Source: Alphaproteobacteria bacterium Ga0077535
GTDB taxonomy: Bacteria > Pseudomonadota > Alphaproteobacteria > Caulobacterales > Aquidulcibacteraceae
Assembly: GCA_001464425.1 (NCBI GenBank)
Contig: LNEK01000024.1
Coordinates: forward strand, 1 to 63,620
Direction of reading: 5' to 3'
DNA length: 63,620 bases
Shown: piece after piece, positions 30,886 through 63,082 of the stretch
How positions within the stretch are numbered: the first letter of the stretch is position 1
Layout: every line of letters begins with the position of its first letter
Position numbers and translations under genes: made by a program
Notes under the pieces: generated by a model
Database searches by the model: none
What the model was told of the DNA's origin: nothing
Seen by the model: the letters and a program-made list of their open reading frames with translations, nothing else

Positions 30886-30998
30886 AAGAAGCTCCCTCGC
30901 CGCATAGTATCCGGCGCAATCCGCTGATACCCGACTGCGCGCGCAGGGCAAGCCGCCCGAATCGCGGCTAAACACCCTCGGAAAGCAGGGAACACCCA

Positions 30999-32990
30999 AT
31001 GGCCAAGCACGAAGAAATCGAAGGCGTCGCCGCCAAGGACATGGCCAACGCCATCCGCGCATTGGCGATGGACGCTGTTGAGAAGGCCAAGTCCGGTCAC
31101 CCCGGCATGCCAATGGGCATGGCCGATGCGGCGACCGTGTTGTTCTCGCGCTTTTTGAAGTTCGATGCGTCCGAGCCGAATTGGCCCGATCGTGATCGCT
31201 TCGTGCTGAGCGCCGGCCACGGCTCGATGCTGCTTTATGCGTTGCTTTATCTCACCGGCAACGAAGACATTACGCTCGATGAGATCAAAAACTTCCGCCA
31301 GCTCGGCTCAAAAACCGCGGGCCACCCGGAAAACTTTCTCGCCTCTGGCATTGAGACGACGACCGGCCCGCTCGGGCAGGGCCTTGGAAACGCTGTCGGC
31401 ATGGCGATGGCGGAGGCGCATCTCAATGCGCGCTTCGGTTCTGAACTTGTCGATCACCGCACCTGGGTCATCGCTGGGGACGGCTGCTTGATGGAAGGCG
31501 TGAGCCAAGAAGCGATCGCACTCGCCGGCCACCAAAAGCTCAACAAGCTCGTGGTGATCTGGGATGATAATTCGATCTCGATCGACGGTGCGATCTCGCT
31601 CTCGGACTCGACCGACCAAAAAGCACGTTTCGCCGCCAGCGGCTGGAACGTGCTTTCGTGCGACGGTCACGACATGGCCGATGTCGCCAAGGCACTCGAC
31701 GCCGCGACCAAGTCGAAAGACAAGCCGACACTGATCGCCTGCAAGACCATCATCGGCTATGGCGCGCCAAAGAAGGCAGGCACCGCCAAGGCGCACGGCG
31801 AGGCGCTTGGCGCCGAAGAACTCGCTGCGACCAAGGCCGCGCTTGGCTGGCCGCACGGCCCCTTCGAAGTGCCGGACGACATCCTCACCGCTTGGCGCAA
31901 AGTCGGCGCCCGCGGAGCGGCGATCCGCGAAGCCTGGGAAGGCACGCTGAAGCGCGCCGCGCAACGCGACAACTTCGCTGCCGCCATGAACGGCGAGATC
32001 GACAGCGCCATCGCCGCGCTCGGCATGCATGCGCAAAAAATGGCCAGCGAAAAGCCGTCCCTCGCCACCCGCGCATCTTCCGGATTTGCGATCGAATCCA
32101 TGTTCGATGCATGCCCCGAACTGCTTGGCGGCTCAGCCGATCTCACCGGCTCCAACAACACGCTCGCCAAAGGCACGACGGACTTCACGGCTGAGAACCG
32201 TCTCGGCCGCTACGTGCGCTACGGCATCCGTGAACACGGCATGGCCGCTGCGATGAATGGCATGGCGCTGCACGGCGGCATCATTCCGTATTCCGGCACG
32301 TTCTTGTGCTTCGCCGATTACGCGCGCCCCTCGATCCGCCTCGCGGCGCTGATGGGCATCCGCGTTGTCCACGTGATGACGCACGATTCCATCGGCCTCG
32401 GTGAAGACGGCCCGACGCACCAGCCGGTCGAGCATCTGGCTTCTTTGCGCGCGATGCCGAACCTCTATGTGTTCCGTCCCGCTGACGCTGTCGAAGCCGC
32501 CGAGTGTTGGCAGGCCGCGCTGCTGCGCGACGATGGCCCAAGCGTTCTCGCGCTTTCGCGCCAAGCGCTGCCGGGCCTACGCGACGACGCCAGCGAGAAC
32601 ATGTCGATCCGCGGCGCCTACGAATTGCTGCCTGCGGAAGGCGGCGCCTCGCGTGTTGCGATCTTCGCCACCGGCAGCGAACTCATGCTCGCCGTCAAAG
32701 CGCGCGAGACGCTGCAAGCCGAAGGCATCCCAACGCGGGTGATCTCGGCGCCGTGCTTCGAACTCTTCGAAATGCAGGACGACGCCTATCAGGACTTCGT
32801 CTGCGGCGATGATGAAGAGCTGAAGATCGGCGTCGAAGCGGCGGTCGGGCAGGGTTGGTTCGAAGCCTTCGGCCTCGACGCGTTCGTGGGCATGTCGACG
32901 TTCGGAACGAGCGCGCCGGCGAAAGATGCCTACGCGCATTTCGGCATTACGTCGGAAGCCATCGTCGAAACCGCGAAGTCACTGCTGTAA
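30999..32990 (+). CDS. tkt: Transketolase
   Basis: Thiamin-diphosphate enzyme moving two-carbon units between sugar phosphates; one of its reactions makes sedoheptulose-7-phosphate, the starting point for heptose sugars. The 663 residues are full length. Visible marks are SGHPGMPMG, the GHGSML loop, the TPP/metal motif [13 protein letters not shown] and [19 protein letters not shown]. It starts [14 protein letters not shown] at the ATG at 30999. Transcribed away from transaldolase over a 113-base gap. The hairpin at 33019-33036 lies just after its stop. Confidence 0.97.
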
Positions 32991-33042: not shown

Positions 33043-34107
33043 TTAGAGCTTCTCAGCCAGCTCCCGCAGCAGCTTCACATCCTGCGCGCGCTCGCGCGGG
33101 ACGATGATCACTGCGTCCCTCGTTGCGACCACCACCAGATCGCTGACGCCAGCGATGCACACCTTCACGCCATCGCCGCGCACCAGATTGCCGCTGCCGT
33201 CGAGCGCGACCACCGCGCCCTGCAACGCGTTGCCGTCCTTGTCGTGCGGCGAAATCCGCCAAATCTCATCCCAGGCGCCGACATCGGCCCAGCCAATGTC
33301 ACACGGCGCCACCGCCGCCCGTGCGGTCTTCTCCATCACGGCAATATCGAGCGGCGCGGAAGGGACTTGCTCGAACAGCTTCGCATCGAGGTGAATCTCA
33401 TCGCCATCGCGCCGCGCTGCTTTTAGCGCCGCCAGCGCCTTGTCGCGAATATCTGCGCTCGCTGCGAACTCGGCGAGCAACGTCGCTGGATGAAAGAGAA
33501 AGATGCCAGCGTTCCAGGAATAGCCGCCGGCCGCGAGATAGCCGCTCGCCGTTTCTGCGTTCGGCTTTTCACGGAAGCTCTCGATCGCGAACACGCCTTC
33601 GCCAAGCTCCTCGCCGCGTTTTATGTAGCCGTAGCCCGTCGCGGGTCGATCCGGTGTGATGCCAAACGTCACGATGCGGTCGTGCGCGAACGGCGCCGCG
33701 CGTTCGATCAGGGCGCGAAAGCCGCTCGGATCAGCGATGACGTGATCTGCGGGCAATAACAGCACCAGGGCATCTGGATCGATCTCAGTCGCAACCGCCG
33801 CTGCAATCGCGCCGACCGCGGCCGTGTTGCGCGGCGCAGGCTCAAGCACGATCGCCGCGGGCAGCACGCCGACTTCGTTCAAATGCTCACGCACCAACGC
33901 CGTATGCCGCACGTTGCACAGCACGATCGGCGGCAAGAAGGTGAGCGCCGCTGACTTGCCGCGCACGCGCCGTGCGGTTTCCGTGAAGAGCGAACCGTCC
34001 TGACGGCTGAGCGCGTGGAATTGCTTCGGCTGCGCCTCGGTGGACACCGGCCAAAGCCGCGTGCCGGCGCCGCCGGACATAATCGCGGGAATGATGCGCG
34101 TGGTCAT
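33043..34107 (-). CDS. manC: Mannose-1-phosphate guanylyltransferase (single-domain form)
   Basis: Makes GDP-mannose from GTP and mannose-1-phosphate. The signature IIPAIMSGGAGTRLWPVSTE and QPKQFHAL, plus VLEPAPRNTAAVGAIAAA and FREKP, are clear. At 354 residues it lacks the C-terminal cupin mannose-6-phosphate isomerase domain of the long ManC/AlgA form, so an isomerase must come from elsewhere. It is the last gene of a minus-strand run: O-antigen ligase, epimerase, cysD, cysNC, manC, 80 bases after cysNC. GDP-mannose then serves as a direct sugar donor or precursor for GDP-deoxysugars. Confidence 0.93.
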   Translation of the reverse strand: MTTRIIPAIMSGGAGTRLWPVSTEAQPKQFHALSRQDGSLFTETARRVRGKSAALTFLPPIVLCNVRHTALVREHLNEVGVLPAAIVLEPAPRNTAAVGAIAAAVATEIDPDALVLLLPADHVIADPSGFRALIERAAPFAHDRIVTFGITPDRPATGYGYIKRGEELGEGVFAIESFREKPNAETASGYLAAGGYSWNAGIFLFHPATLLAEFAASADIRDKALAALKAARRDGDEIHLDAKLFEQVPSAPLDIAVMEKTARAAVAPCDIGWADVGAWDEIWRISPHDKDGNALQGAVVALDGSGNLVRGDGVKVCIAGVSDLVVVATRDAVIIVPRERAQDVKLLRELAEKL

Positions 34108-36943: not shown

Positions 36944-37943
36944 AATAGCCTCGATACCAATCAACGAAACGCTGCGCGCCATCCTCAATCGAGGTGCGCG
37001 GCGCAAAATCGACATAGAGCATCAGATCGGAAACATCCGCGTACGTCGCAGGCACATCACCCGGCTGCATTGGCAGCAGGTTTTTGATCGCCGTCTTGCC
37101 GGTGGCCCTCTCGATCGCTTCGATCAGCCGCGTAAGCGTCACCGGCTCGCTGTTGCCGATATTGAAGATGCGATAGGGCGCATTCGAAGTTGCTGCGTCC
37201 GGCGCCTCGCCACTCCAATCCGTATTTGCCTGCGCCGGTTTATCACCAACGCGCACCAACGATTCCACCACATCATCGACGTACGTAAAATCGCGCTGCA
37301 TCTGGCCGTTGTTGAATACATCGATCGGCCGGCCTTCGAGAATGGCGCTGGTGAAGAGATACATCGCCATGTCCGGCCGGCCCCACGGGCCATACACCGT
37401 GAAGAACCGCAGGCCCGTCACCGGCAGCCGGTAAAGGTGGCTGTACGAATGCGCGAGCAGCTCGTTCGATTTCTTCGTCGCCGCATAAAGGCTGAGCGGG
37501 TGATCAACGTTCTGATGCACCGAGAACGGCATCTTCGTCACGGCGCCGTACACCGAACTCGAAGACGCAAACACCAGATGCTTCACGCCGCCATGCCGGC
37601 ACGCTTCCAGTAGATTGACGAAGCCGTCCAAGTTCGAGCGGACATAAGCGTGCGGGTTCTGCATCGAGTAGCGCACGCCCGCTTGCGCCGCGAGATTGAA
37701 CACGAGCTCGAACCGATGCTCGGCGAAAACACTATTGAGCGCGTCCGCGTCGGCGAGATCGACTTCAGCGAACGTAAAACCTGGATGCTCTTGCAGCGCC
37801 TTTAGCCGCCCACGCTTCAGTTCGACGTCATAATACGCGCTCATATTGTCGAGGCCGACCACCGGCCGGCCAGCACGCAAAAGCCGCTCGGCCAGATGGA
37901 AGCCGATAAAGCCCGCGGCGCCAGTCACCAGGACGGGAGTCAT
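36933..37943 (-). CDS. UDP-glucuronate 4-epimerase-type sugar epimerase
   Basis: An extended short-chain dehydrogenase of 336 residues; NAD binding at [15 protein letters not shown], catalytic Tyr/Lys in YAATKKSNE, and the opening [12 protein letters not shown] are typical. The stretch [22 protein letters not shown] and the [10 protein letters not shown] motif agree with LpsL/Cap1J-type UDP-glucuronate 4-epimerases, giving UDP-galacturonate for LPS or capsule; other UDP-sugar epimerases are possible. It lies after the O-antigen ligase gene by 85 bases and overlaps cysD, so sulfate activation and uronate supply are co-expressed. Confidence 0.87.
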
Positions 37944-44124: not shown

Positions 44125-45825
44125 CTACTGGGTGAGCGCTTGGTCCAGCGCTGCGAGCGTGATTGCGCAGTCTCCGATAGCTCTTGAACGCGCGTCGTTC
44201 AGTCCATCGAGATCGGGCTTCAAAACCAACTGCACTGCAAGTCTCTCGAGATCGGCGGCGCAGGCTTCATCAATTCGGTAGCAGTACGGCCAGCCCAGCG
44301 GGGCGAGCAGGTCAAAGACCTTTGCGCCGCCAGCGATTTGATCGATGGCGATGAATGGGACGCCGTAGCGAAGCGCCATCACCGCGCCGTGAAACCGTGA
44401 GGTGATGATGAGGTCGCAATCGGCATAAAGCGCGTCGATGCCGTCCGGTGTGAGCTCGGAGCGCTGAAGATGGTTTTCGATGTCGACAACATAGCCGCCG
44501 CTTACCTCAAGCGCGGCAGCTGCGGCCTTGCGCGCCAATGTCTCTGTTTCTTGCCACCGGCATTTGTCCTCGCCGTACTCGCTTTGGGCGCCGCGCAGTG
44601 AAATGCCTATCTTCTTCGTATTGCGTACACGCGGCGCGCGCGCGACCGGCGGCGCGGCGATGGCGATGTCGCCATACGTTTCAGCTGCGCCTTGGCGTGC
44701 AAATAGAGTTTGAAATGGATTGGAGTGGTGCGGGCTCTCCGCTGGCAGGATCGAGACGCCTAGGCCGATCAATGGTGTGCCTGCAAAGTGACTGAAGAGA
44801 GCGCTTGTCTGCGGATGGGTGCCTAGAATCGGGCCGCAGACGAAAATGAGCGCGTCATACTCGGCGCAGGAAACCTCGCTCCATTGAACGCGCTGTGAGC
44901 CGGGTATGTGGAGATCAAGGGCTGTTGCGTGATGCACGCTGTGACCGCGTCCGACCAAATGTGTGACCGCGCTTTCAAGCGAGCGGAGGTCGCCGATCGT
45001 ACCGTGGCCAAAAGACCCGTACCAGCACACGAGGAGTCGCTTTGCTCTTGCTGGCGCGCCCACAGGCTGCGGCGCGTTGGGCCAATCGCCAGCCGCATAG
45101 CGGGCGAGCATTTCCATCGTTGAGCCGGGCTCGATTGGCTTGTCTTGTTTCTGGGAGAGCTTGAAAACCCAGGCTGGCGGATTGGCTAGGCCATCGACGT
45201 ATTTTTGCTCCACTGGTCCCATGAGCCGCGCATCGTGCGGGCCGAAGTGGAAGAGGTGCCAAGCTGGGAGCTTCCGCGTGCTGTCCCACAGGCGCCGCCA
45301 CTGGGGATCGGCGGCGTAGCCTTGTGCGAAGAGTTGGTGAAACCAGAAATAGTCACCGCGTTCGCGCCGTTCGTGCCAATAGTTCTCGGTGCGGCGACGC
45401 CATTCCTCAACGATGTAACTGCCCTTCTTCGCCGCTAGGAACCAGCTCGCGATCATACGCTCTGGGACCGGCTTTTCGAACGCGAAGAAGTCGGACGTGA
45501 GATAGTCGGAAAGCCATTCATCCAACGGTCGTGCGCAAAGCGTGGATGCATCGGCCCAGACTCCGCCGTATCTCGCCAGGAGTTCGATGCGGATGCGATC
45601 GCTGAGCGCTTCAACCGCGTCGGCTGGCGTGGTCAGAATTTGATCGACAGTGTCCAACGGTAGAGAGTCGCGCAACGTCTCGCGTGAGAGCGTTTGTACT
45701 CGCCAAGAGGGATTGAGGCGCTGCCAACTCTGCAGGCACGCTTGCGCTATTGGTGGCGCACGATCCCAGCCTTGAAGCCAAAGCATCCAAATGATGCGCG
45801 GGCAGGGCGCGTCGTTAGTCATCAC
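44125..45825 (-). CDS. Fusion of capsule-type glycosyltransferase and polysaccharide pyruvyltransferase
   Basis: A 566-residue protein of two enzymes. The N-terminal ~270 residues resemble the Caps_synth/GT32 family: IIWMLWLQGWDRAP at the start and SDRIRIELLARYGGVWADAS, whose D-x-D-like end binds the sugar nucleotide. The C-terminal ~300 residues are a polysaccharide pyruvyltransferase (PS_pyruv_trans), with LVCWYGSFGHGTIGD, KKIGISLRGAQ and ITSRFHGAVMALRYGVPFIA. One protein may thus add a sugar and then a pyruvate ketal, a negatively charged decoration. The 5' end is 39 bases from the end of the broken DUF2793 gene on the same strand. Confidence 0.85.
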   Translation of the reverse strand: MMTNDAPCPRIIWMLWLQGWDRAPPIAQACLQSWQRLNPSWRVQTLSRETLRDSLPLDTVDQILTTPADAVEALSDRIRIELLARYGGVWADASTLCARPLDEWLSDYLTSDFFAFEKPVPERMIASWFLAAKKGSYIVEEWRRRTENYWHERRERGDYFWFHQLFAQGYAADPQWRRLWDSTRKLPAWHLFHFGPHDARLMGPVEQKYVDGLANPPAWVFKLSQKQDKPIEPGSTMEMLARYAAGDWPNAPQPVGAPARAKRLLVCWYGSFGHGTIGDLRSLESAVTHLVGRGHSVHHATALDLHIPGSQRVQWSEVSCAEYDALIFVCGPILGTHPQTSALFSHFAGTPLIGLGVSILPAESPHHSNPFQTLFARQGAAETYGDIAIAAPPVARAPRVRNTKKIGISLRGAQSEYGEDKCRWQETETLARKAAAAALEVSGGYVVDIENHLQRSELTPDGIDALYADCDLIITSRFHGAVMALRYGVPFIAIDQIAGGAKVFDLLAPLGWPYCYRIDEACAADLERLAVQLVLKPDLDGLNDARSRAIGDCAITLAALDQALTQ

Positions 45826-45864: not shown

Positions 45865-46872
45865 TTACACCCAGAGTCCGGAGATGGACACGCTGGTGAT
45901 CCCCAAGCCGCTCCCCGACACCGTCTCCCGCATGAACACCAAGTTCGAATTGGAGATCGGGGAGAGGACGCTGCAGGGCTGGGTGTATTGGGCGCCGAGG
46001 CGTGAGCCGCCGCTTTCGCTGCGGATGCCGGTGAAGGAGCCGCTTACGCCAGCTTCCGTGGTGTCGAGGATCGCTTGCACGGAGAGGCCTTCGACCAAAG
46101 CTTTCAGCAGCAGGCCTTTTTGCCGGAAGACGCGGCCGAGCACGGTTTGCATCATCGGCGAAATGTCGAGCGCGATGACGCGGCCGGGAATGATGGTGGT
46201 CGGGTCGCCGAGCTGGATGGCGTCGGCTGCGCTCCATGTGGCGATGGCGGCGGCGTCCAGCACTTGCAGCTGATTGGCGGCGGGCGCGGCTTTGATCTAA
46301 GCGGATTCGATCGGCGATTTGGTGGTGTTCCAAATGCGCGCGTAGACGACGCCGGCCATGAGTGCGCCGAAGAGGAGGCCAGCGTCGGCGGTCGTGAGAG
46401 TGATGATATCGCCGGCGACGGCGCTGATGGCGACGGCGCGAGGATTTTGGGCGCGCGGCGTGTCGATGCGATAGGCGCTGACGATGCCGTCGCCGCCGGT
46501 GGTGAAGATGAGGCGATGCTCGCTCTGGCCGGCGATGTGCGCCCAGGCGGCGGCGGTGCGGATGTAGAGGTGGTGCGTATCTTCGGCGACGCATTGCCAG
46601 CCGGTGCGCGGTGTCAGTTCTTCCCACACGCCGTGGCGATAATACGCGAGCGCGCCATCGGCCATCGCGCCCCAGGCGGCGCCGGTTTTGCCGGTGGGGA
46701 GAATGTAGATGTCGCCGTCTGATGGTGATGCGGGCTCTGCGGCGAGCGTGGCGGATTTTGCGGAGAGTTGCGTCAGCGCGTCGAGGCGCAGAAGCGATTC
46801 GTTGACAGTGACGTGTTTCTGCGCTTGCGCGGCGGCGAGATAGGGAATGCCGAGACGGGTGGATTGCGACAT
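45865..46872 (-). pseudogene. DUF2793 protein interrupted by an in-frame amber codon
   Basis: The N-terminal part starts MSQSTRLGIPYLAAAQAQKH, typical of DUF2793 proteins, with a strong AAAAGGAG ribosome-binding site eight bases upstream. After 191 codons a TAG stands at 46299-46297. The same frame then continues without a break (IKAAPAANQLQVLDAAAI, to a natural stop at 45865), giving a full length of about 335 codons. The TAG is one substitution from TGG (Trp) or CAG (Gln). The reading resumes in family style, so this is a nonsense mutation rather than two genes. DUF2793 proteins often accompany gene-transfer-agent or tail genes in alphaproteobacteria, but no such genes are nearby. Confidence 0.78.
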
Positions 46873-46953: not shown

Positions 46954-49332
46954 CTAATCGAGCGCGGCGGCGACGCGGATCAGCTCATCGCAGGCGAACA
47001 TGATGTGATAGAAGCTAGAGGCGGGCGCGGGCTCTTCGATGAAGCCGCCATGGGCGAGGCGGCGGTCGCGCCAGAGGCCTTTGACGGGCGTGTCGCAATA
47101 GGTCATCAGCATGTCGAAGGCTTGGGCTGCGGCGTGCGCGGCTTCTGGATCGCGCGTGCGCGCGTAGCGGATGACGTTGGCTTTGATGCGCTCGGTGTGC
47201 GGCCACAGGCGCGAGGTTTGTGTGCGCGGGCGGCCATCGGGATGGACCTCGTCAAACACGGCGGCGCTGGCGAGATCGACGCCGTAGACTTCGCCATGCA
47301 CGCGCAGGCGCTCAGCGATGGCGGAAAGATCGCCGCCGCCGGCTGTGTGCCATTTGTGGAGGAGCCAGCTCCATTCGAAATGGTGGCCGGGCTCGACGAT
47401 GATGCCGGCGTCTGGGCGCCAGGCATCGTTGAAATATTCCGGCAGCACGCCGAGGTTCGGCTCGAAGAATTTATCGCGGAAGAGATGGGCGATTTGGGTG
47501 GCGCGGTTGAGATGCGCTGCGTTGCCGGTGGCGGCGTGCAGCGCGAGCAACGCTTCGAACATGTGCATGTGCGGATTTTGGCGGCGCGGCGGTGTGGGCG
47601 TGACCTCGCCTTCGCGGAAGCCGCCGGCCGGGTGCGCCCAGTTCGCTTCGGCCCAGGCGATGAGCTTTTCCGCGGCGGCGATGAGGTCCGGGCGATCGCC
47701 GAGCGCGCGCGCGGCTTCGGCGAGGCCGAAGACGACGAAGGCGAGGTCGTATAGATCGCGGCGCTCGTCGCTGGGTGCGCCACTGGGCGATAGCATATGG
47801 CGCGTGCCGCCATCGGCGCGGAGGGCGCGGGTGAGGAGGATGTCGGCGCCGGTTTCGACTGCCTCGCGCCACGGGCCGTTCCAGCCTAGGTGCTGCGCGC
47901 GTGCGTACACAACGGTCTGCCGCGCTTGCACGCGGATGCGGCGCGGTAGTTGCGCTTGCGGCGCGCCGTCGAGCGCCATGCGTTCGTGGAAGCAGTTCGC
48001 AGCGCGGTCAAAGCCGTGCTCCCACCAGAGCGGCAGTGCGTGATCGAAGAGCCATGCGCGTGCTTGCGCGGCGCGATCGCGGATCGCGGCTTTGGCTTGC
48101 GCGGCTGTTGCGCTTCGCGTCGGCATGCGGGCGAGACCGGCGCGGACGGCGCTGAGGAGTTCACCGCTTTGCACCTTGGCGCCGAAGAGGTTGACGGCGC
48201 TTGCCGCTTGCGTGTCGAGATCGGTGTCGCCGACGACGAAGCAGCGCGTGCGGTCAATCGGCCATTCGGCCAGCGCGCGGCGCAGCATGCCGGGATTGGG
48301 TTTGCGGTCGGGGTGGTTGGCGTGGGTGAATTCCGCAACGACGCCGTCGCCGTGGTGCGGGCAATGGTAGAATGCGTCGATGTGAGCGCCGTGCGCGCGG
48401 AGGTCCGTTTGCATGTGCGCGTGGAAGGCACGCATGTCGGCTTCGCTGTAGAGGCCGCGGGCGATGCCGGATTGATTGGTGACGACGATGGCGAAGGCGC
48501 CGGCGTCATTGGCGGCGCGTATGGCTTCGATGGCGCCGGGTTTCCAGCGCAGCTTTGCGGGTTGAAACGTGTAGCCTTCGTCTTCGATTAGAGTGTTGTC
48601 GCGATCGAACAGCACGGCGGGGCGGCGCATGCGATCGGCGAATTCGGTGCGCGCTTCGGCGAGTGTTTCGGGCAGGCCGATATCGATGAAATAGCCGTCG
48701 CTGGTGTAGCTCGCGAGCGCGTTTTGCGCGGCGAGTTTTGGGAACACGTCCGTCTCGATCGAGCAGGGTGTTTGCGTGATCAGATCGAGCGCGCTGCGGC
48801 GGAGCACGTACACGCCGGCGGAGATCAGCGCTGCTTTGGCGTTCGGGTCTTTCTCCTGAAAGGCGAGGACGCGGCCGTCTTTCGCCTCCACGCGCCCGAA
48901 GCGTGCGCCGTCATCGACGCGGCGCAGCGCCATCGCGCCGATGTCGTTTGGGCCTAATGTCTGTGCGAGGGCGAGATAATTTGTGTCGAAGAACGTATCG
49001 CCGTTCGACATCAGGAACACGTCGTCGAGCGTGTCAGCGGCGTAGCGCAGCGCGCCGCCCGTGCCTGCGGGCTCGGGCTCGACGATGACGTGCACCCTCG
49101 CGCCGAGCACCGATTGGCCCTCGTAACGTTCGGTGACGAGATCGCCCATATGGCCCGCCAAAAGGACGATTTCTTCTACGCCGTGGCGGGCGATATTGAA
49201 GAGCAAGTAATCCAGGAACCGCGTATCGCCCGCGATTGGCAGCAGCGGCTTAGGCGCAGCGCGCGCCAGATCGCCTAATCGTGATCCGCGCCCGCCTACG
49301 AGAATGACAGCCTGCCGCATTATGATGCTCAT
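46954..49332 (-). CDS. Three-domain fusion: sugar-phosphate nucleotidyltransferase, GmhB-like phosphatase, AGE-family isomerase
   Basis: A 792-residue protein with three enzyme domains. Residues ~5-230 are a HddC-like nucleotidyltransferase (AVILVGGRGSRLGDL, APKPLLPIAG). Residues ~238-405 are a HAD phosphatase of the GmhB type (FDRDNTL, Asp243/Asp245; VVTNQSGIARG; RKPNPGML; VVGDTDLD). Residues ~425-792 are an N-acylglucosamine 2-epimerase/aldose-ketose isomerase barrel (NPHMHMFEA with His588/His590; PGHHFEWSW with His650/His651 and Glu653). With hddA in the next plus-strand unit this suits GDP-D-glycero-D-manno-heptose synthesis, the AGE part perhaps forming the heptose-7-phosphate. A mannose, GlcNAc or other pathway cannot be excluded. 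Confidence 0.85.
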   Translation of the reverse strand: MSIIMRQAVILVGGRGSRLGDLARAAPKPLLPIAGDTRFLDYLLFNIARHGVEEIVLLAGHMGDLVTERYEGQSVLGARVHVIVEPEPAGTGGALRYAADTLDDVFLMSNGDTFFDTNYLALAQTLGPNDIGAMALRRVDDGARFGRVEAKDGRVLAFQEKDPNAKAALISAGVYVLRRSALDLITQTPCSIETDVFPKLAAQNALASYTSDGYFIDIGLPETLAEARTEFADRMRRPAVLFDRDNTLIEDEGYTFQPAKLRWKPGAIEAIRAANDAGAFAIVVTNQSGIARGLYSEADMRAFHAHMQTDLRAHGAHIDAFYHCPHHGDGVVAEFTHANHPDRKPNPGMLRRALAEWPIDRTRCFVVGDTDLDTQAASAVNLFGAKVQSGELLSAVRAGLARMPTRSATAAQAKAAIRDRAAQARAWLFDHALPLWWEHGFDRAANCFHERMALDGAPQAQLPRRIRVQARQTVVYARAQHLGWNGPWREAVETGADILLTRALRADGGTRHMLSPSGAPSDERRDLYDLAFVVFGLAEAARALGDRPDLIAAAEKLIAWAEANWAHPAGGFREGEVTPTPPRRQNPHMHMFEALLALHAATGNAAHLNRATQIAHLFRDKFFEPNLGVLPEYFNDAWRPDAGIIVEPGHHFEWSWLLHKWHTAGGGDLSAIAERLRVHGEVYGVDLASAAVFDEVHPDGRPRTQTSRLWPHTERIKANVIRYARTRDPEAAHAAAQAFDMLMTYCDTPVKGLWRDRRLAHGGFIEEPAPASSFYHIMFACDELIRVAAALD

Positions 49333-49521: not shown

Positions 49522-50310
49522 GTGGGGACCACGGCAGTAGCGTTCCGGGATCTGGGCGGCTCTTTAGCTCGCCTGCCGCTAGCCTTTTGGCTGGCTTGGG
49601 ACGACATCCACGGCAAATATAGGCGGACCGTTCTCGGCCCGCTTTGGATCACTATAGGCCAAGCTGCGGTAATCTGCGGTTTTGCCGTGGTTTTCTCGGG
49701 GCTCTTCGGTGCCGACCCTGCAACGTACTTGCTGTACCTTGCTGCTGGGTTTCCGATCTGGGCGATGATATCGCAATACTTTGTCGACATGCCTGCGGCG
49801 TTTGTGAACACGCGAGGCATGATCGAGAGCTACGAGCTGCCGTGGCTGCTGCAGATATGGCGCCGCGCTTTGGGCTATGTGCTGATCTTCGTGCATCACA
49901 TTGCGATTTTGTTCGTCGCGATGCTGATATTGGGGGTGCAGCCGACACCGAACATGCTGCTCGCAGTGCCAGCGCTGTTTATCGTCACGCTGGCGGGGGT
50001 TGGTTTTGGTTTGACGGTTGCTGTGCTTGGGGCGCGGTTTCGTGACTTGCAGCATGCGCTTGGTGTCGCCGCGAGCTTCCTGATGCTCTTCTCGCCGGTT
50101 TTGTGGCGTACTGAGCAGCTGCTGACCAATCAGTGGGTCTATCAGTTCAATCCGCTGTATTATTTTCTCCGCCTCTTGCGCGACCCGTTGCTGCAATTGT
50201 CGACACCTGTCGAGATTTGGATCGGCGCTGGGGCAGGCGCGGTTGCTCTGTTCGTACTCGGCTTCGTTACCTTCTGGGTGAGCCGCCGCAATCTCTATCA
50301 CTGGATGTAG
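49522..50310 (+). CDS. wzm: ABC-2 polysaccharide export permease (Wzm-like)
   Basis: A 262-residue inner-membrane permease with six helices. WDDIHGKYRRTVLGPLWITI is the N-terminal amphipathic signature of the Wzm/TagG/KpsM branch; PWLLQIWRRALGYVLIF and FNPLYYFLRLLRDPLL are also typical. It starts at a GTG at 49522 after GGGGGAAGC. The ATPase follows after three bases, so the two form the transporter. It exports a lipid-linked finished glycan across the inner membrane. Confidence 0.93.
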   Translation: MGTTAVAFRDLGGSLARLPLAFWLAWDDIHGKYRRTVLGPLWITIGQAAVICGFAVVFSGLFGADPATYLLYLAAGFPIWAMISQYFVDMPAAFVNTRGMIESYELPWLLQIWRRALGYVLIFVHHIAILFVAMLILGVQPTPNMLLAVPALFIVTLAGVGFGLTVAVLGARFRDLQHALGVAASFLMLFSPVLWRTEQLLTNQWVYQFNPLYYFLRLLRDPLLQLSTPVEIWIGAGAGAVALFVLGFVTFWVSRRNLYHWM

Positions 50311-50313
50311 TCG

Positions 50314-51084
50314 ATGGTGGGTATTTCACTCTCGGATGTGGTCGTACGCTATCCAGTGTACTCTTCTGGCCGCCAGCGCTCGATACTGAGTGCGACGGCG
50401 AACCGTGTTTCATTTGGGCGCGTCGCACAAGACGTGGGCCGAATTCCCACGGTTACAGCGCTCAGCGGCATTTCGCTTGAGTTGACCGAGGGAATGCGGC
50501 TTGCCTTGATCGGCCGCAACGGCTCCGGGAAAACCACGTTCCTGAAAATGTGCGCGGGGCTCGTCCTGCCAAATGAAGGCACGATCCAGATCAATGGCAC
50601 GCGAGCGGCAATTATCAATCCTAGTGCTGGTCTCGATCCTGACAAAACGGGCCGAGAGAACATCGAATATATTGGCCGCCTGCTCGGCGTGAGCCGCTCC
50701 GAGCGCAAGTTGCTGGTCGACGATGTCGCCGATTTTACAGAACTGGGCGACTTTCTGAATTTTCCGATCCGCACCTATTCCAGCGGCATGACCGTGCGTT
50801 TGATGTTTGCGCTCGCGACTAGCATCGAGCGCGATATCCTGATCGTCGATGAGATCATCGGCGCTGGCGATGCGCTGTTCATGGAAAAGGCGGCCAAGCG
50901 GGTCCGGAGCATGTTCTCGCGCGCGAAAATCCTGATCTTGGCTACGCACTCTGGCGAGGTCGCCGCACAGCTTTGCACCAGCGCGCTTTGGCTCAATAGC
51001 GGCAAGGCGATGATGGCCGGCACGCCAGAAGAGGTCTGGGACGCTTACGTCCATCAGCGGCCGCCGCTCGGCGCTGTGGCCTGA
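50314..51084 (+). CDS. wzt: ABC-2 polysaccharide export ATPase (Wzt-like, short form)
   Basis: The 256-residue ATPase partner of the permease. Walker A GRNGSGKTTFLK, signature YSSGMTVRLMFALAT and Walker B RDILIVDEIIGAGD are intact, with the extra N-terminal leader seen in Wzt/TagH proteins. Compared with Wzt forms of E. coli O8/O9a (over 400 residues), the C-terminal carbohydrate-binding domain is absent. So export should not depend on recognising a non-reducing-end cap through that domain. It begins at the ATG at 50314, three bases after the permease stop. Confidence 0.92.
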   Translation: MVGISLSDVVVRYPVYSSGRQRSILSATANRVSFGRVAQDVGRIPTVTALSGISLELTEGMRLALIGRNGSGKTTFLKMCAGLVLPNEGTIQINGTRAAIINPSAGLDPDKTGRENIEYIGRLLGVSRSERKLLVDDVADFTELGDFLNFPIRTYSSGMTVRLMFALATSIERDILIVDEIIGAGDALFMEKAAKRVRSMFSRAKILILATHSGEVAAQLCTSALWLNSGKAMMAGTPEEVWDAYVHQRPPLGAVA

Positions 51085-51152: not shown

Positions 51153-52223
51153 ATGGCAGAATCGTTCATTCGGGCCCGTGCACCGCTCCGTCTTGGGCTT
51201 GGCGGCGGCGGCACGGATACCTCGCCATATGCCGAGCAGTATGGCGGCGTCGTCATCAATGCTACGGTTGATCTTTATGCTCACGTGACCATCGCGCCAT
51301 CGCAAAGCGGCGATGTCGAACTCCATCTGGATGACCGCGAACTCTCGTGGCGCGGGCCAGCAGCGACGCCGCTGTCGCTGACCGACGAGATGAAGCTGCT
51401 GCAGGGCGTCTACAATCGCATGTGCGGCGACTTTAACGGTGGCCGCGCCATGCCGATGGCGATCCATGTTTCTGCCGACGTGCCGCCCGGCTCTGGCCTA
51501 GGCACATCGTCGGCAATGGTGACGGCGCTGGTGCAGGCGTTCAACGAACTCTTCCAAGCGCGGCTGAGCGCCTACGATGTTGCGCATTTGGCGCATGAGA
51601 TCGAGCGCGTTGACCTGAAACTGAACGGCGGCAAGCAGGATCAATACGCGGCGGCGTTCGGCGGCGTGAACTTCATCGAGTTTGGGCCGGGGCCGGGCGT
51701 GCTGGTCAATCCGCTCCGAATTGCGCCGGAGACGGCGGCGGAGTTCGAAGCTTCGCTGGTGCTGTTCTTCTCCGGTGTGTCGCGCGAAAGCGCGCGCATC
51801 ATCGACGAGCAAACACGAAATGTATCGGGCGGCGCGACAGCGTCGGTGGAAGCGATGCACCAGCTGAAAGCGCAGTCGTTCCAGATGAAGCAGGCGCTTT
51901 TACGCGGGCGCATTGATGAAGTAGCAGCGATTCTGGATGAAGGCTGGGCGCAAAAGAAGCGCACCGCCTCGACCGTGACGACTCCTGAACTTGACGCGCT
52001 CTACGATGCGGCGAAATCCGCTGGCGCGATGGGTGGGAAGGTGTCCGGCGCGGGCGGCGGTGGCTTCATGATGTTCCTCGTCGATCCACGCAAGCGTCTG
52101 CGTGTGGTGCGCGCTCTGGAGGCATATCCGGGCCGCGTGTTCGCTACCGGCCTGACTGCTGGCGGCGTTATGTCTTGGCGCGTTGGTGAAGATCTCCGCA
52201 AACTGGCAAGCCTCGCGGCGTGA
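51153..52223 (+). CDS. hddA: D-glycero-alpha-D-manno-heptose 7-phosphate kinase
   Basis: GHMP-family sugar kinase making heptose-1,7-bisphosphate from heptose-7-phosphate, the committed step to GDP-heptose. The 356 residues include the opening RAPLRLGLGGGGTDTSPYAE, the ATP loop PPGSGLGTSSAM and the late GAMGGKVSGAGGGGFMMF. These match HddA rather than galactokinase or the ADP-heptose path kinase HldE. The start at 51153 has GAGGATTC upstream. It follows Wzt by 68 bases and overlaps rfbC by four, so it is co-expressed with export and rhamnose genes. Substrate specificity is inferred from family resemblance. Confidence 0.87.
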   Translation: MAESFIRARAPLRLGLGGGGTDTSPYAEQYGGVVINATVDLYAHVTIAPSQSGDVELHLDDRELSWRGPAATPLSLTDEMKLLQGVYNRMCGDFNGGRAMPMAIHVSADVPPGSGLGTSSAMVTALVQAFNELFQARLSAYDVAHLAHEIERVDLKLNGGKQDQYAAAFGGVNFIEFGPGPGVLVNPLRIAPETAAEFEASLVLFFSGVSRESARIIDEQTRNVSGGATASVEAMHQLKAQSFQMKQALLRGRIDEVAAILDEGWAQKKRTASTVTTPELDALYDAAKSAGAMGGKVSGAGGGGFMMFLVDPRKRLRVVRALEAYPGRVFATGLTAGGVMSWRVGEDLRKLASLAA

Positions 52224-52768
52224 TCGAGCGATTGGCAATACCGGACGTCTGGACCTACACGCCAAAGCGTTTTGGCGATGCGCGCGGCTGGTTCTCGGAA
52301 ACCTTCAATGCGGGTGTGCTGGGCGAGATGCTGGGCGGCCTCACATTCGTGCAGGACAATCAGGCATTCACGCAGGCGCAATACACTTTACGTGGGATGC
52401 ACTTTCAGGCGCCGCCAAAGGCGCAAGATAAGTTCGTGCGCGTGCTGCGTGGTTCTGTGCTGGATGTGGCGGTCGACATCCGGCGCGGTTCGCCAACGCT
52501 TGGGCGCTGGGTTTCAGCCGTGCTGAGTGCGGAGAATGGCGCTCAGATTTTCGTGCCGAAGGGTTTTGCCCACGGCTATCTCACCCTCGAGCCGGATACC
52601 GAGGTGTTCTACAAAGTCACTGATTATTGGAGCCGCGAGAACGAAGGCGGCATCGCCTGGGATGATCCGGCGATTGGCGTCGACTGGGGCGTCGCGGCTG
52701 GAAGCGTGAACATGGCCGATCGCGATCGGCAGTTTCCGCGCCTTGCTGATTTGGCGCCGGTTTTCTAA
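52220..52768 (+). CDS. rfbC: dTDP-4-dehydrorhamnose 3,5-epimerase
   Basis: Third enzyme of dTDP-L-rhamnose synthesis, a cupin. The 182 residues show the start YTPKRFGDARGWFSETFN, the catalytic His in LRGMHFQAPP, and AQIFVPKGFAHGYLTLE with the Tyr loop YKVTDYWSRENEGGIAW. GTG start at 52220 overlaps the hddA stop by four bases (GTGA). Confidence 0.95.
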   Translation: MIERLAIPDVWTYTPKRFGDARGWFSETFNAGVLGEMLGGLTFVQDNQAFTQAQYTLRGMHFQAPPKAQDKFVRVLRGSVLDVAVDIRRGSPTLGRWVSAVLSAENGAQIFVPKGFAHGYLTLEPDTEVFYKVTDYWSRENEGGIAWDDPAIGVDWGVAAGSVNMADRDRQFPRLADLAPVF

Positions 52769-52777
52769 CAAGAGCCC

Positions 52778-53833
52778 ATGAAAGCGTTGATCACAGGCGG
52801 CGCCGGCTTCATCGGCTCGGCGCTGACCCGGCATCTTGTCGGGCAGGGGTGGCAAACGCTTGTCGTTGATAAGCTCACCTATGCTGGGAATTTGTCCTCA
52901 TTGGCGGAGGTGGCGGACAAGCCTGGCTTCGTGTTTGCGCAGATCGATATTTGCGAGCGCGACGCGCTGAGCGCGGCGTTTGCGGCGCATGATCCGGATA
53001 TCGTGTTTCACTTGGCGGCGGAAAGTCACGTCGACCGCTCGATCACGGATGCGGCGGCGTTCATCGAGACCAACCTCGTCGGCACGTTCAATGTTCTGCA
53101 ATGCGCGCGCGCGCATTGGGAAAACCGCACCGGCGAAGCGAAGGCTTGCTTTCGCGTCGTGCATGTTTCGACCGATGAGGTGTATGGCTCGCTTGGTGAC
53201 GAGGGGCTCTTTCACGAGACAACGCCGTACGATCCGCGCTCGCCATATTCGGCAAGCAAGGCCGGCGCCGATCACCTGGCCAGCGCCTGGTTTCACACCT
53301 ACGGCCTGCCGGTGCTGATTTCGAACTGCTCGAACAATTACGGGCCCTATCATTTGCCCGAGAAGCTGATCCCGCTGACGATTTTGAATGCGCTCGAAGG
53401 CCGTAAGCTGCCGGTCTATGGCGATGGCAAGAATGTGCGTGACTGGCTTTATGTTGATGATCACGTCGCTGCACTCTGCTTGATCGCGGAAAAGGGTGAG
53501 CCGGGGCGCTGCTACAATGTCGGCGGGCGCAATGAGCGTGCGAACATCGATGTCGTGCACCGCATTTGCGATCTGCTCGATCAGCACGCGCCGAAAGCCT
53601 ATCCGCATCGCGAGCTTATCGAGTTTGTCGTGGATCGCGCCGGGCATGATCGGCGCTATGCGATTGATGCGACGCGGCTTGAGAGCGAGCTTGGTTGGCG
53701 CGCGCAGGAGACCTTCGACACCGGCATGGAACGCACGGTGCGCTGGTATCTCGATAACGAGGATTGGTGGCGGCCGTTGCGCGACGAGGGTATCGGCGTC
53801 GCGCGTCAGGGTCTGTTGAAGGAAAAGCCGTGA
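52778..53833 (+). CDS. rfbB: dTDP-glucose 4,6-dehydratase
   Basis: Second enzyme of the dTDP-rhamnose pathway. The 351 residues have the NAD loop [33 protein letters not shown] catalytic STDEVYGSL region and [15 protein letters not shown] (Tyr/Lys), plus [11 protein letters not shown]. It lies nine bases after rfbC and overlaps rfbD by four. Confidence 0.96.
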
Positions 53834-54705
53834 TCCTGGTGATTGGCCGCAACGGGCAGCTGGCGCGCGCTTTGGTGCGTCGCGCAGCGGCGCGCGGTGT
53901 AGCGGTAGAGGTGATGGGTCGTCCTGAGATCGATCTTATGGCGCCTGGGATTGCGGCGCGTGAGATCGCGGCGCGAGGGCCCGCCGTGGTGATCAATACT
54001 GCTGCGTACACGGCGGTTGATAAAGCTGAAGACGATGCCGAAACCGCGCGGCGTATTAATGCCGAGGCGCCCGAAGCGATGGCGCGGGCGTCTGCGGATG
54101 TTGGCGCAGCGTTCGTGCAGATTTCTACCGATTACGTTTTCGCGGGCGATAATGACGGCGCTTACGTTGAGACCGATGCGGTTGCGCCGAATGGGGTCTA
54201 CGGCGCGACCAAACTGGAAGGCGAGCAGCGCTCGCTTGCGGCGAATGCGCGGACGATCGTGATGCGTACGGCCTGGGTATATGATGCGAGCGGCGCCAAT
54301 TTCGTGCGCACCATGCTGCGGCTTGCATCAACGCACGATGAGCTTGGCGTTGTCGCCGATCAGCGCGGTTGCCCGACATTTGCGGATGATCTTGCCGATG
54401 CGGCGCTGAGCGTGGCGCTGAAGCCGGAGAGTTTCGGCGTTTATCATTGCGCCGGCGCCGGCGAGACGACCTGGGCGGATTTCGCAGAAGAGATTTTCTC
54501 CCATTCGCGTGCGCGCGGCGGACCGGGTGCGGCGGTGCGCAAGATCACTACGGCGGAATTTCCGACCCGCGCCAAGCGGCCGGCAAATTCGCGGCTCGAT
54601 TGCACGAAATTGGCGCGCGATTACGGTGTCGTTATGCGGCCCTGGCGCGAGGCGCTCTCGGCGTGCATGGATGAAATAGCCGCTGGCGGCTGGAGAGTGC
54701 AATGA
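53830..54705 (+). CDS. rfbD: dTDP-4-dehydrorhamnose reductase
   Basis: Last enzyme of dTDP-rhamnose synthesis, reducing the keto sugar with NAD(P)H. From the GTG at 53830 the 291-residue protein begins [15 protein letters not shown], the nucleotide-binding loop, followed by [25 protein letters not shown], the [12 protein letters not shown] catalytic Tyr/Lys and [18 protein letters not shown]. The frame is open upstream to 53764 within rfbB, but GTGA overlap at the rfbB stop marks the true start. Confidence 0.95.
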
Positions 54706-55583
54706 AGGGCATCGTCCTTGCTGGCGGCACCGGCAGCCGGCTCTTCCCGGTGACGCTGGCGATCTCCAAGCAGCTGACGCCGGTCTATGACAAACCGCTG
54801 ATCTATTATCCGATCAGCACGCTCATGCTCGCCGGCATCCGCGACATCCTGATTATTTCGACGCCTGCCGATCTGCCGCAATTTCAGAAGCTTTTGGGCG
54901 ATGGCGCCGCATGGGGCGTGAAGTTCAGCTATGAAGAACAAGCGACGCCCGCTGGAATCGCCCAAGCTTTTTTGATTGGCGAAAAGTTCCTCGACGGCGA
55001 GGGCGCGGCGCTCGTTCTCGGCGACAACATTTTCTATGGCCACGGCTTAGTCGAGCAATTGGCCAGCGCGACCCAACGGCGAAAGGGCGCCACAGTTTTC
55101 GCCTATCAGGTGGCTGATCCTGAGCGGTTCGGCGTGGTTTCTTTCGATGCGGACGCAAAAGCCCTGACGATCGAAGAAAAGCCGGCGAAACCCAAATCCA
55201 ACTGGGCTGTCACGGGGCTCTATTTTTACGACGCCAGCGTCGTCGAGGTGGCCCGGGCCCTCAAGCCTTCGCCGCGCGGCGAGCTTGAGATCACCGATCT
55301 AAACAAAGTGTATCTGAAAGCCGGCGCGCTCAATGTGGAGCGCATGGGCCGCGGCTATGCTTGGCTCGACACCGGAACGCCGGATTCCCTGCTGGAAGCG
55401 GCGGAATTCGTGCGAACTTTGGAGCGTCGCCAAGGCCTGAAGATCGCATGCCCCGAAGAAGTTGCGTTCCACATGGGCTTCATAGATCAGCAACAGCTCT
55501 TGCGACTTGGTGAGCGATTGGCGAAATCGAGCTATGGGGAATACCTCCTAGCGATTGCCCGTGACGAGACTTTCAACGGCTAG
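54702..55583 (+). CDS. rfbA: Glucose-1-phosphate thymidylyltransferase
   Basis: First enzyme of the dTDP-rhamnose pathway. The 293 residues carry [20 protein letters not shown], the sugar-binding [28 protein letters not shown] and [19 protein letters not shown]. The ATG overlaps the rfbD stop by four bases. Gene order C-B-D-A is one operon together with hddA and the ABC exporter. A 123-base gap, without a clear terminator, precedes the next gene. Confidence 0.97.
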
Positions 55584-55706: not shown

Positions 55707-58700
55707 ATGGTGCAGCCGTTTCAAGGTCCGCAAGGCGCGGTGCTCGTATTGGGCATGCACCGCAGCGGCACCAGCGCGCTGACGCGTGGCCTCGAGGTTT
55801 TGGGCATAGATCTCGGCCGCAATCTGAAAGACGCGGTCGCTGGCGACAATGAGAAGGGCTTCTTCGAGGACGCTACGCTCTCGGGGATCAATGACGACCT
55901 GCTTGCGCTGACTGGCGCGCGTTGGGACAGTCTGCTCGCCCGTGACGCCTCAGAAGCGGACGTCGCACAGGTCAACGCGCTGAAGTTGCGTGCGATCGAC
56001 GCCATCGTTAGGCAATTCGGCGGGTCCCAATATTTTGCGTTCAAAGATCCGCGTTCCTGCCGCGCCATCCCGTTCTGGAAGGATGTATTCTCGCGCCTCG
56101 ATCTTCGGGTCACGTACGTGATTGTGTTCCGCAACCCTATGGATGTTGCGCTGTCGCTGCAGCAGAGAGATGGCTTTCCGCGATCGCGATCATATTACCT
56201 TTGGTTGCTGCACATGCTGTCCGCAGTGCGACATACCGACGGACAGCGCCGAGTGTTTGTGAATTACGATGATCTGTTGGTCGACCCAGAAGCGGCTCTG
56301 ACGCGCATCGGCGAAGTGATTGATTGCGGGGTTGATGCCGATGCGCTTGGGAAATATCGCTCGACGTTTCTTGACCTCAATTTGCGTCGACACAGCGGTC
56401 CCGCAGCGCGGCTGGAGCTAGACGCAGCTTGCCCGCCAGACGTGCGATCGGTGTTCTCTCTGCTTTGTGCTGAAGCCGAAGGTAAGTCTCCGTCGCAGCA
56501 GGACTGGCAACGTCTCTTCGAAGCATACGATCGACTTGTTCCGTACACACTTCTGCTCGATGAAGTCGACCGCCAAATGCTCAGTCTCTTCGAGCAGAAA
56601 AATAAGCTCGCGGCGGACTTGGGCAGTGTTTCTGAACGGTTGGCTCAGGCCGAAGTGCGCGGCTCCGCCCAGGACGAGGCAATTGGCGCCCTGAGAGCGG
56701 AGGCAGCTGGGCGCGAGGTGAGAGTCGCAACACTACGCTCGCAGCTGGATGACATGGCTGCCGCGCGCGAGGCTGAGCGCGCAAACGATCTCTCAGAGCT
56801 CTCCGTTCTGCATGGGCGTCTTCGCGTCCAGGCCGAGTTGGAGATGCGCCTCGCCGAGGCCGAGAGCGCCAGGCGCGCTCTTGGCGATCGCGTTGTCGAT
56901 CTCCAGAAGAGCATTGAAGAATTGCACGAGCAGCAGGCGCGGGACGAGCGCCTGCTCAGCTTGCACAGTTTGCTGGCGGCTCAATTCGAGAGTTCGCAAG
57001 AGCAATGGCTGCAGGAACGCGGTGATTGGCGCGAGCAACTCCGAATGTTGGAGGAGCAACGGCAGGCGCAGCAACGCTTGCTGCAGGCGCAGGAGGAGCA
57101 GTTGCGAACTCTGCTAGATCAGTCGCGGCAACACCGTATCGCGAGCGAGGAACGCCAACACTTTGAGCGGGCAGTCGCTGATTCTGCGCGCCGAGCGGCT
57201 GAAAGCGCTCAGCGTTCGGCCGCTCTGGAGGCGGCGTACCGGATGCTGGCGGACCGGCTGCGGAGTGTCTATGCGTCGTCCAGCTGGCGGCTCGCCGGGC
57301 CACTCCGCGCATTGAAAGCAAGCGTGTCTGGCGGTCACGTTAACGAGGTCGTGCCGCCCCTGGAAGACATCGTAGCCGCAGCCCCGGCAGTGCCTCTGGA
57401 ATCGTCACTGCTGAAGCGCAGTGTGACGTCGACGAGCACGCCGTCCTTTGCTTATTTCACGATCTGTTCGCGCAATTTCTTGGCCTTTGCCAAGACACTG
57501 TTTCAGACGCTGCGTGAGCATCATCCGGACGCCCAGTTCTATGTCGCACTCTGCGATGCGCCGGACGCGCCGTTTAACCCGGCCGATGAGCCGTTTCCGT
57601 TCATTTATCTGGACGATATCGACCTGCCGCAATGGCGTGAGATGTCACAGCGTTACAACATCACTGAGTTTAACACGGCGATTAAACCGTTTGTGTTTCG
57701 CCATCTGATGAAGCGCGGCGTCGCGGACGCGATCGTGTATTTGGACCCGGACATCATCGTCAAAGGCCATATGTCCGAGTTGGAAGAGGCGTTCGCAGCT
57801 GGCGCATACGGTGTGCTCACGCCGCACGTCACCATGCCGGCGGAGAATGTCGAAACCAGTGATGTGAAGATGCTTCAGTACGGCATCTACAATCTCGGCT
57901 TTGCCGCCTTCCGCGTTTGCGCTGACGCAATCAGCGCTATGGAGTGGTGGGGGCGGCGGCTGATCAATGATTGTGTGATTAAGCTGGAGGAGGGGCTGTT
58001 CGTCGATCAAAAATGGGCGGATTTGCTGCCGGCGATTTTGCCGAACCTCCATGTGCTGCGCCATCCCGGCTACAATGTTGCGTATTGGAATGTCGCCCAG
58101 CGGCGCGTTGTTTTGAGCAACGGTATCTACACGGTGAACGGCGAACCGCTTCGGTTCGCACACTTCAGCGGCAGTAAGCTCGAAGATGCGACGGTTTACT
58201 CGCGGCACAGCGGCCAATTCAATACGACGAATATCGGCGATCTTGTTCACTTGCTGAACGAGTATCGCAGTCGTGTGTTTGGCAACGAGCATGCGCGCTA
58301 CCAGAAAATTCCGTACGCATTCAGCTGGAACGGCCAAGCAGGCGTCAATCTGCATACGCCTGAGCCAACACATCAAAAGCACGTGCATGCTGAGTCTGGC
58401 CCGGCGCCGCAACCGCCATCGGGAGGGCCCGAACTGGATGTGTCGAGCAGCGCAGCGCGTGCATTGCGCATGGTGCGCACTGCTTCAAACCTTGCGGGCG
58501 GCTTTCCGCAACTGGCGCTCAAGGCAACGCGCGTGCTTGCCAATGGCGGGTTTGGCGCGGTGCGTCAGCGCATTCGCCTTGTAGAAGGCGCCGCCAATGA
58601 GTTGGAGCTCCGCCAGAGCTTACAATCGGGCGCGAGCACGCACGCTCTTGAAGTCACGGCGTTGGGTGAGGCCGGACTGCCCTCTTGGCGGCGGCGACTT

Positions 58701-62983: not shown

Positions 62984-63082
62984 TGTTTTTGCAGCGTACG
63001 AATCAGACGCGGCGCGCGTCTTGAGATGTACGCTCGCATGAACGTCCAAGCCCAACAACCACCTCAAGAGCGACCCCTGGAC

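Follow-up and report, generated by a model that had tools for sequence, protein, structure and literature searches.

Bacterial heptose synthesis has GmhA as its accepted committed step, and this enzyme has been studied as a drug target. The ADP-L-glycero-D-manno-heptose pathway proceeds through GmhA, HldE, GmhB, and HldD. In the accepted GDP-heptose route, as set out in a portion of PMC10680097, GmhA is followed by HddA, GmhB, and then a guanosyltransferase. Here we analyze a polysaccharide locus of Alphaproteobacteria bacterium Ga0077535 (order Caulobacterales) in a stretch of 63,620 nucleotides of contig LNEK01000024.1, the whole of which is referred to below as the window. The locus resembles GDP-heptose loci in that it encodes homologs of the kinase, the phosphatase, and the guanylyltransferase. 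It differs in that no GmhA was detected in the genome, an AGE-family barrel is found instead, and three enzymes are joined in one chain. Gene arrangement and homology suggest that AGE acts as a sedoheptulose-7-phosphate (S7P) isomerase in place of GmhA, both in this fusion and in GDP- and ADP-heptose clusters of Alphaproteobacteria, a reading to which we assign a probability of roughly 0.77. The heptose pathway and the AGE family are already known; an AGE enzyme at this step and the fusion appear to be the new element. No report of an AGE-family S7P isomerase or of a nucleotidyltransferase-GmhB-AGE fusion was found among the open-licence PMC papers listed as matches.

The fusion gene lies at 46954..49332 on the minus strand, where a single open frame spans the coordinates exactly and encodes 792 residues. 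An earlier note, made from the sequence alone, had divided the product into an HddC-like nucleotidyltransferase (NT), a GmhB-like HAD phosphatase, and an AGE barrel, and Pfam, NCBIfam, and structure matches confirm this division. The NT domain (residues 8 to 231; 48640..49311, minus strand) is matched by NTP_transferase (PF00483, 1.2e−27) and, at about 1e−25, by the structures 5xhw and 6jq8 (HddC of the 6-deoxy-mannoheptose pathway) and by that of a mannose-1-phosphate guanylyltransferase. Residues 85 to 94, EPEPAGTGGA, resemble the HddC motif EXXPLGTGGA with L changed to A at one position; the glutamate of this motif selects guanine, according to part of PMC6981941. Several HAD models match within residues 237 to 391 (48160..48624, minus strand), including TIGR01656 at 106.9 bits (cut-off 84.15) and the GmhB model PRK08942 at 2e−33. 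This HAD domain aligns to the GmhB structures 3l8e and 2gmw, and its DxD, K, D set (D243, D245, K344, D369, and D373) is invariant in nine of nine alignment rows. The AGE domain, our proposed S7P isomerase, comprises residues 419 to 792 (46957..48078, minus strand) and is matched by GlcNAc_2-epim/AGE (PF07221) over residues 449 to 780 (9.8e−66; 222.8 bits against a cut-off of 23.4).

The HddA-like GHMP heptose-7-phosphate 1-kinase that the earlier note had placed at 51153 to 52223 is encoded there on the plus strand. It matches NF049969 (5e−96) and PDB entry 4usk (1.3e−96, a gapless alignment across 342 residues), which we take to be WcbL of B. pseudomallei. Residues numbered in the available part of PMC4691232 land on matching letters of the 4usk chain. 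R13, D22, Q162, and D163 (WcbL numbering), whose mutants in that part of the paper lost activity and did not restore the capsule, are all conserved in the HddA-like kinase. Curated NCBIfam equivalog cut-offs were missed by HddA (322 of 600 bits), HddC (NF049965, 98.7 of 300 bits), and GmhB (PRK08942, 115.5 of 178 bits), and these names therefore rest on homology, motifs, and context.

Intact three-domain frames with 57 to 62% identity to the window fusion were found in two other genomes, a Caulobacteraceae metagenome-assembled genome (MAG) (L171, 819 amino acids) and a Hyphomonadaceae MAG (L174, 816 amino acids), and copies interrupted by contig ends occur in L170 and G468. Because the intact frames recur, the fusion is no assembly artifact. 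Two-domain GmhB-AGE fusions are present in G458 and G547. Long AGE open frames were also considered as fusions and were rejected where the frames proved distinct; in L127, for example, NT-HAD and AGE are overlapping but separate genes.

The absence of GmhA from the window, asserted in the earlier note, extends to the whole genome (3.96 Mb, 44 contigs, 99.98% complete), in which TIGR00441 (gmhA) and SIS_2 (PF13580) gave no match at an E value of ≤1e−3; the intact gmhA elsewhere that the note had raised as a counterargument was not found in these searches. The same searches gave matches in 9 of 14 control genomes. None of 150 sampled genomes of the order Caulobacterales contained gmhA at 1e−40, while 14 had some match at 1e−3, the best at 1e−35. 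The window genome contains one AGE match, the fused domain, among the five of eight first-look candidates that were scored.

To place these observations in a wider context, named genomes were scanned with an NT-HAD alignment, which confirmed at least 584 places; the 80 best of these were compared with flanks of up to 10 kb. GmhA was nearby in 25 loci, AGE in 21, both in none, and neither in 34, and the counts were identical within 3 kb of NT-HAD or HddA (Fisher, 9.3e−5). AGE is fused in 3 of the 21 AGE loci, follows NT-HAD immediately on the same strand in 14, and is arranged otherwise in 4 (L177 and L217 come from a single genome). Where GmhA is present, it usually lies ahead of NT-HAD or next to HddA, and an equivalent arrangement, HddA-GmhA plus NT-HAD, is found in L163 and L164. 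The "neither" class contains all 16 Bradyrhizobium loci and also takes in short contigs. Otherwise similar loci have AGE in the place of GmhA or the reverse.

AGE genes occupy the place of GmhA not only in GDP-heptose (HddA/HddC) clusters but also in ADP-heptose (HldE/HldD) clusters. The gene order is HldE-AGE-HAD-HldD in Sulfitobacter, where the HAD is GmhB-like, HldE-HAD-AGE in Gemmobacter, and HAD-HldE-AGE in Gluconobacter. On a Rhizobium plasmid (L007:7866-10610), a 915-amino-acid open frame near HldD and HAD genes is an in-frame AGE-HldE fusion that is annotated solely as an adenylyltransferase. The order gmk-HldE-AGE-dnaB is found in G026 and G158, which have no gmhA match, and HldE-AGE followed by dnaB in G334, whose best gmhA match is 5.9e−5. 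G458, a genome from the same family as the window and lacking any gmhA match, has HldE followed by a GmhB-AGE fusion, and its AGE domain falls in the same eight-row clade as that of the window (SH-aLRT, 97). Relatives of the window AGE domain therefore resemble the ADP-heptose pathway in standing beside HldE, in two loci near HldD, while the window genome differs in having no strong HldE match (best, 1.8e−10). Most heptose loci have AGE as an independent gene next to NT-HAD or HldE, so both the GDP and the ADP routes make use of the replacement. HldD is a C6-epimerase with no meaning for mannose, and AGE genes beside it argue against a pure mannose reading.

The pattern at the loci was followed across complete gene content in 50 NT-HAD genomes, with gmhA counted at 1e−40: 20 AGE-locus genomes, 24 of the 34 in the "neither" class (the other 10 loci are all Bradyrhizobium), and 6 of the 25 with a GmhA locus as controls. 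gmhA was present in 2 of the 20 AGE-locus genomes and in all 6 controls. Ten "neither" genomes contained gmhA, one of them together with AGE; in the 14 without gmhA, 6 of which are Bradyrhizobium, AGE was found elsewhere in 12, and the remaining 2 had weaker SIS matches (8.9e−10 and 7.6e−27). One of the six controls also contained AGE, adjoining HldE (L277), and a second strong AGE was present in 8 of the 20 AGE-locus genomes, including that of fusion L174.

A class-wide survey searched the same 385 alphaproteobacterial genomes for HddA, AGE, gmhA, and the HldE kinase, with cut-offs of better than 1e−50 for HldE (209 genomes) and 1e−30 for AGE; the gmhA threshold was our choice, as only 2 of the 385 genomes pass the curated cut-off. 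Among the 209 HldE genomes, AGE was present in 9 of 154 with gmhA versus 29 of 55 without it (P = 5e−13). Counted by family majority at an AGE cut-off of 1e−15, AGE was found in 9 of 88 families with gmhA versus 10 of 18 without (P = 6e−5). Within 17 mixed families at the same cut-off, AGE was commoner in the gmhA-minus members in 7 and the reverse in none, with 10 ties (P = 0.016). Moving the gmhA cut-off to 1e−20 changed the family result to 12 of 93 versus 7 of 13 (P = 0.0018) and left the within-family contrasts at 7 to 0. Across genomes, AGE and GmhA replace each other largely, not strictly.

The AlphaFold2 model of the AGE domain has a pLDDT of 97.7, and Foldseek matched it to a glucose 2-epimerase, cellobiose 2-epimerases, a D-mannose isomerase, and YihS with TM scores of 0.78 to 0.92 (0.92 to 8h1l), in keeping with the remark in the earlier note that aldose-ketose isomerases share this fold. 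R471, H590, and H776 (fusion numbering) show no variation across 93 aligned AGE rows, and H650 is kept in 92 of them; we take these four to be the catalytic residues of the AGE family. The basic residues R465, R708, and K717 are kept in 89, 88, and 82 of the 93 rows; the cellobiose and glucose 2-epimerases in the alignment, which act on unphosphorylated sugars, lack them at the corresponding positions. As putative phosphate contacts, R465, R708, and K717 suit a phosphorylated substrate, yet they are silent on six versus seven carbons. YihS (a sulfoquinovose/mannose isomerase), D-mannose isomerase, and cellobiose 2-epimerase share the fold and the AGE active-site columns with the window domain and differ from it in their identity of about 20% and, for the aligned 2-epimerases, in these basic residues. 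The annotated Pmi of S. meliloti, presumably a type III phosphomannose isomerase, is a member of the AGE family with 39% identity and the same R/R/K set, and the window domain is predicted to catalyze the same type of reaction. The window domain is instead joined to heptose enzymes, neither standing alone nor paired with ManC, and it has Arg451 where Pmi has Thr.

In the proposed pathway, the AGE domain would carry out the first step in place of GmhA, converting S7P to heptose 7-phosphate. The separate HddA kinase would then add the 1-phosphate, the GmhB domain would take off the 7-phosphate, and the HddC domain would yield GDP-heptose, roles suggested for these three by homology and motifs. 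The AGE domain would need to perform chemistry of the phosphomannose isomerase type, turning a ketose phosphate into a manno-aldose phosphate, with a substrate that has one more carbon. Unlike the GmhA family, the domain has a fold other than SIS; it shares the role of GmhA in the model only and is not a GmhA. S7P is commercially available, as mentioned in part of PMC4691232. Thus, the suggestion in the earlier note that the AGE domain is the missing isomerase is supported by replacement at loci and across genomes, with the enzymatic step itself something we infer. Its idea of a new fusion route stands insofar as the fusion is real; the replacement is not bound to the fusion and mostly involves separate AGE genes in both GDP and ADP routes. 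We read the three-domain fusion as a probable late event in the Caulobacterales upon a wider AGE-for-GmhA substitution. A broader formulation is somewhat favored on the same grounds: a second, unrelated class of S7P isomerase on an AGE barrel, derived from or overlapping type III phosphomannose isomerase, may initiate both ADP- and GDP-heptose formation across much of the Alphaproteobacteria, including heptose producers of the Caulobacterales. One lineage has the barrel joined to HldE, and another has it joined to GmhB, either alone or together with HddC.

Several observations weigh against this assignment. The L182 and L187 genomes contain gmhA elsewhere in addition to AGE at the locus, and G361 has gmhA (3.6e−48) together with an AGE about 5 kb from HddA. 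At an E value of ≤1e−15, AGE is present in 10 of the 154 HldE genomes with gmhA and absent from 24 of the 55 without it, some of them nearly complete. Alternative solutions or missed matches must therefore exist, and AGE is neither exclusive to gmhA-minus genomes nor the only solution. G278, an HldE genome with no gmhA match, contains only a ManC-fused AGE, and the heptose-linked locus L127 has a ManC-like gene within 6 kb. S. meliloti Pmi nests inside the AGE tree, and the heptose-linked AGEs are scattered on it rather than forming one clade; for both reasons, the substrate cannot be read from sequence alone. A single "heptose AGE" clade had been expected and was rejected, as the starred branches of the tree (a quick tree with SH-aLRT support only, in which L009 and L251 are still labeled "alone") force at least 11 (GDP) and at least 6 (ADP) label changes. 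This scatter suggests several recruitments or relinkings. Residue 451, picked from the alignable columns of a 379-residue stretch, was considered as a specificity residue. It is Arg, Lys, or Gln in 30 of 37 heptose-linked versus 2 of 25 ManC-linked AGEs (P = 9e−9 in a test that ignores kinship), and 17 of the 25 ManC-linked AGEs have Ala, Glu, or Ser there. Among independent, unlinked AGEs, it did not predict the absence of gmhA (16 of 23 versus 6 of 10, P = 0.70), and Arg451 is therefore not relied on here.

The nine HldE genomes G008, G084, G091, G125, G196, G199, G217, G243, and G304, which are 93 to 100% complete, have neither a gmhA nor an AGE match. A third solution to the first heptose step is possible in these genomes.

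The resemblance to S. meliloti Pmi raises the alternative that the AGE domain acts as a type III mannose-6-phosphate isomerase for the stand-alone ManC (mannose-1-phosphate guanylyltransferase) encoded at 33043..34107 on the minus strand, that the fusion is incidental, and that heptose 7-phosphate comes from an unrecognized isomerase. Residues 5 to 347 of this ManC align to positions 1 to 341 of the 467 in TIGR01479, and the phosphomannose isomerase (PMI) part is missing. The genome has ManC, but searches found neither a type I PMI nor a ManC-borne PMI domain, gave no second AGE match, and picked up a single weak cupin match elsewhere (2.2e−5), which also speaks against an exclusive heptose role. 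Within the order, ManC and AGE are in one frame in 10 of 20 fetched regions (9 chosen for long AGE frames and 11 from the window's genus), and such fusions also occur in L134 (Caulobacterales) and L120 (outside the order). In 5 of 11 regions from the genus of the window, a ManC 68 to 72% identical to that of the window has a stand-alone AGE as its neighbor; such an AGE seems to have been lost from the window genome. Mannose-6-phosphate isomerase is the probable function of AGEs that are joined to ManC or lie next to it. This alternative nevertheless appears unlikely, as it leaves unexplained the mutual exclusion of GmhA and AGE at NT-HAD loci and the HldE-HldD-AGE clusters, the second strong AGE in 8 of the 20 AGE-locus genomes could be the Pmi there, and no SIS_2 candidate for the unrecognized isomerase was found in the window genome. 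ManC lies within 6 kb of AGE in 8 of 44 loci labeled "alone," in 1 of 13 GDP-linked loci (L127), and in none of 8 ADP-linked loci. Since ManC is present and no other mannose-6-phosphate isomerase was recognized, a mannose role is plausible too, and the same domain may serve both heptose and mannose in the window genome, acting on S7P and fructose 6-phosphate, which we call the economical reading. The mannose chemistry that the earlier note offered as an alternative thus becomes a possible additional role, while context points to heptose.

Phosphomannomutase provides a cheaper route to mannose 1-phosphate, and this counts against a version in which the whole set is hexose specific, with AGE converting fructose 6-phosphate to mannose 6-phosphate, HddA forming mannose 1,6-bisphosphate, the HAD domain releasing mannose 1-phosphate, and the NT domain producing GDP-mannose, so that AGE loci would make mannose and GmhA loci heptose. 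Every step has a hexose analog, and the top NCBIfam match of the NT domain is a mannose-1-phosphate guanylyltransferase. In the parts of the papers available, WcbL was crystallized with D-mannose (PMC4691232) and an HddC was assayed with "alphaM1P," taken as mannose 1-phosphate (PMC6981941). We nonetheless regard this version as improbable, because AGE also stands beside HldE and HldD, a GmhB-AGE fusion adjoins HldE, and the four top solved-structure matches of the kinase are heptokinases or sugar kinases of the same family. Most matched AGE-family structures are 2-epimerases, so the domain could instead be a C2 epimerase acting after a hidden isomerase, for example giving D-gluco-heptose phosphate in place of the manno form. 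GmhA and AGE should then co-occur, and they do so in none of the best 80 NT-HAD loci, nor was GmhA found in the window genome, which makes this very improbable. That the fusion is inactive, or an artifact of assembly or annotation, is hardly credible. It is rare (150 genomes of the order yielded the copy in the window, one other intact copy in G530, and the cut copy in G468), but intact diverged copies exist, catalytic-type residues are kept in the HAD and AGE domains, as is the HddC motif in the NT domain, and the AGE fold is confident.

If the AGE domain is a substitute S7P isomerase, this nonhomologous replacement of GmhA fills a pathway hole in many genomes and extends the substrate range of the AGE family to a phosphorylated heptulose. 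Pathway annotation would be corrected, as five heptose-linked AGE genes in annotated records are now labeled merely "AGE family epimerase/isomerase," and these heptose producers would escape surveys with gmhA as the marker. An AGE-type isomerase would presumably be insensitive to GmhA inhibitors.

The fusion also resembles the type II bifunctional GMP/PMI (TIGR01479) in that an isomerase is joined to a guanylyltransferase of the same pathway. The isomerase of type II GMP/PMI is a cupin rather than an AGE, and that enzyme differs further in serving mannose, not heptose, and in having no HAD domain. The ManC-AGE fusions, with frames of 716 to 786 amino acids (L120:9356-11638, L134:8374-10587, L306, L309, L315 to L320, L322, and L323), are a mannose counterpart of type II GMP/PMI with an AGE isomerase, found in the Caulobacterales and one other alphaproteobacterium.

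hddA is divergent from the fusion gene, and a two-gene Wzm/Wzt-type ABC exporter lies between them, so the two are not one operon; promoter and terminator scans gave nothing usable. The exporter consists of an ABC-2 polysaccharide permease (49522..50310, plus strand; NF050109, 9.8e−42) and an ATPase (50314..51084, plus strand; NF050108, 6.6e−66). Directly 3′ of hddA, the dTDP-rhamnose genes rmlC-rmlB-rmlD-rmlA occupy 52220..55583 on the plus strand (TIGR01221, TIGR01181, TIGR01214, and TIGR01207, all above cut-off). A transketolase, which makes S7P, is encoded at 30999..32990 on the plus strand (PF00456, 1.5e−133), about 14 kb from the fusion, a tie to the heptose pathway that is only suggestive. 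Together with a gene for a TalC-type transaldolase/fructose-6-phosphate aldolase it spans 30232 to 32990, 14 to 17 kb from the fusion, and both belong to S7P metabolism. Within the polysaccharide region, a DUF2793 protein (46297 to 46872) is encoded just downstream of the fusion gene. A 566-amino-acid protein (44125 to 45825) combines a capsular-synthesis/glycosyltransferase-like (Caps_synth) domain with a polysaccharide pyruvyl transferase domain. A 1,660-amino-acid protein (55707 to 60689) has sulfotransferase, SMC-like (probably coiled-coil), GT4 glycosyltransferase, and methyltransferase regions. Together with cysD and cysNC (34188 to 37015) and another sulfotransferase (62240 to 63067), this protein suggests that the polysaccharide is sulfated.

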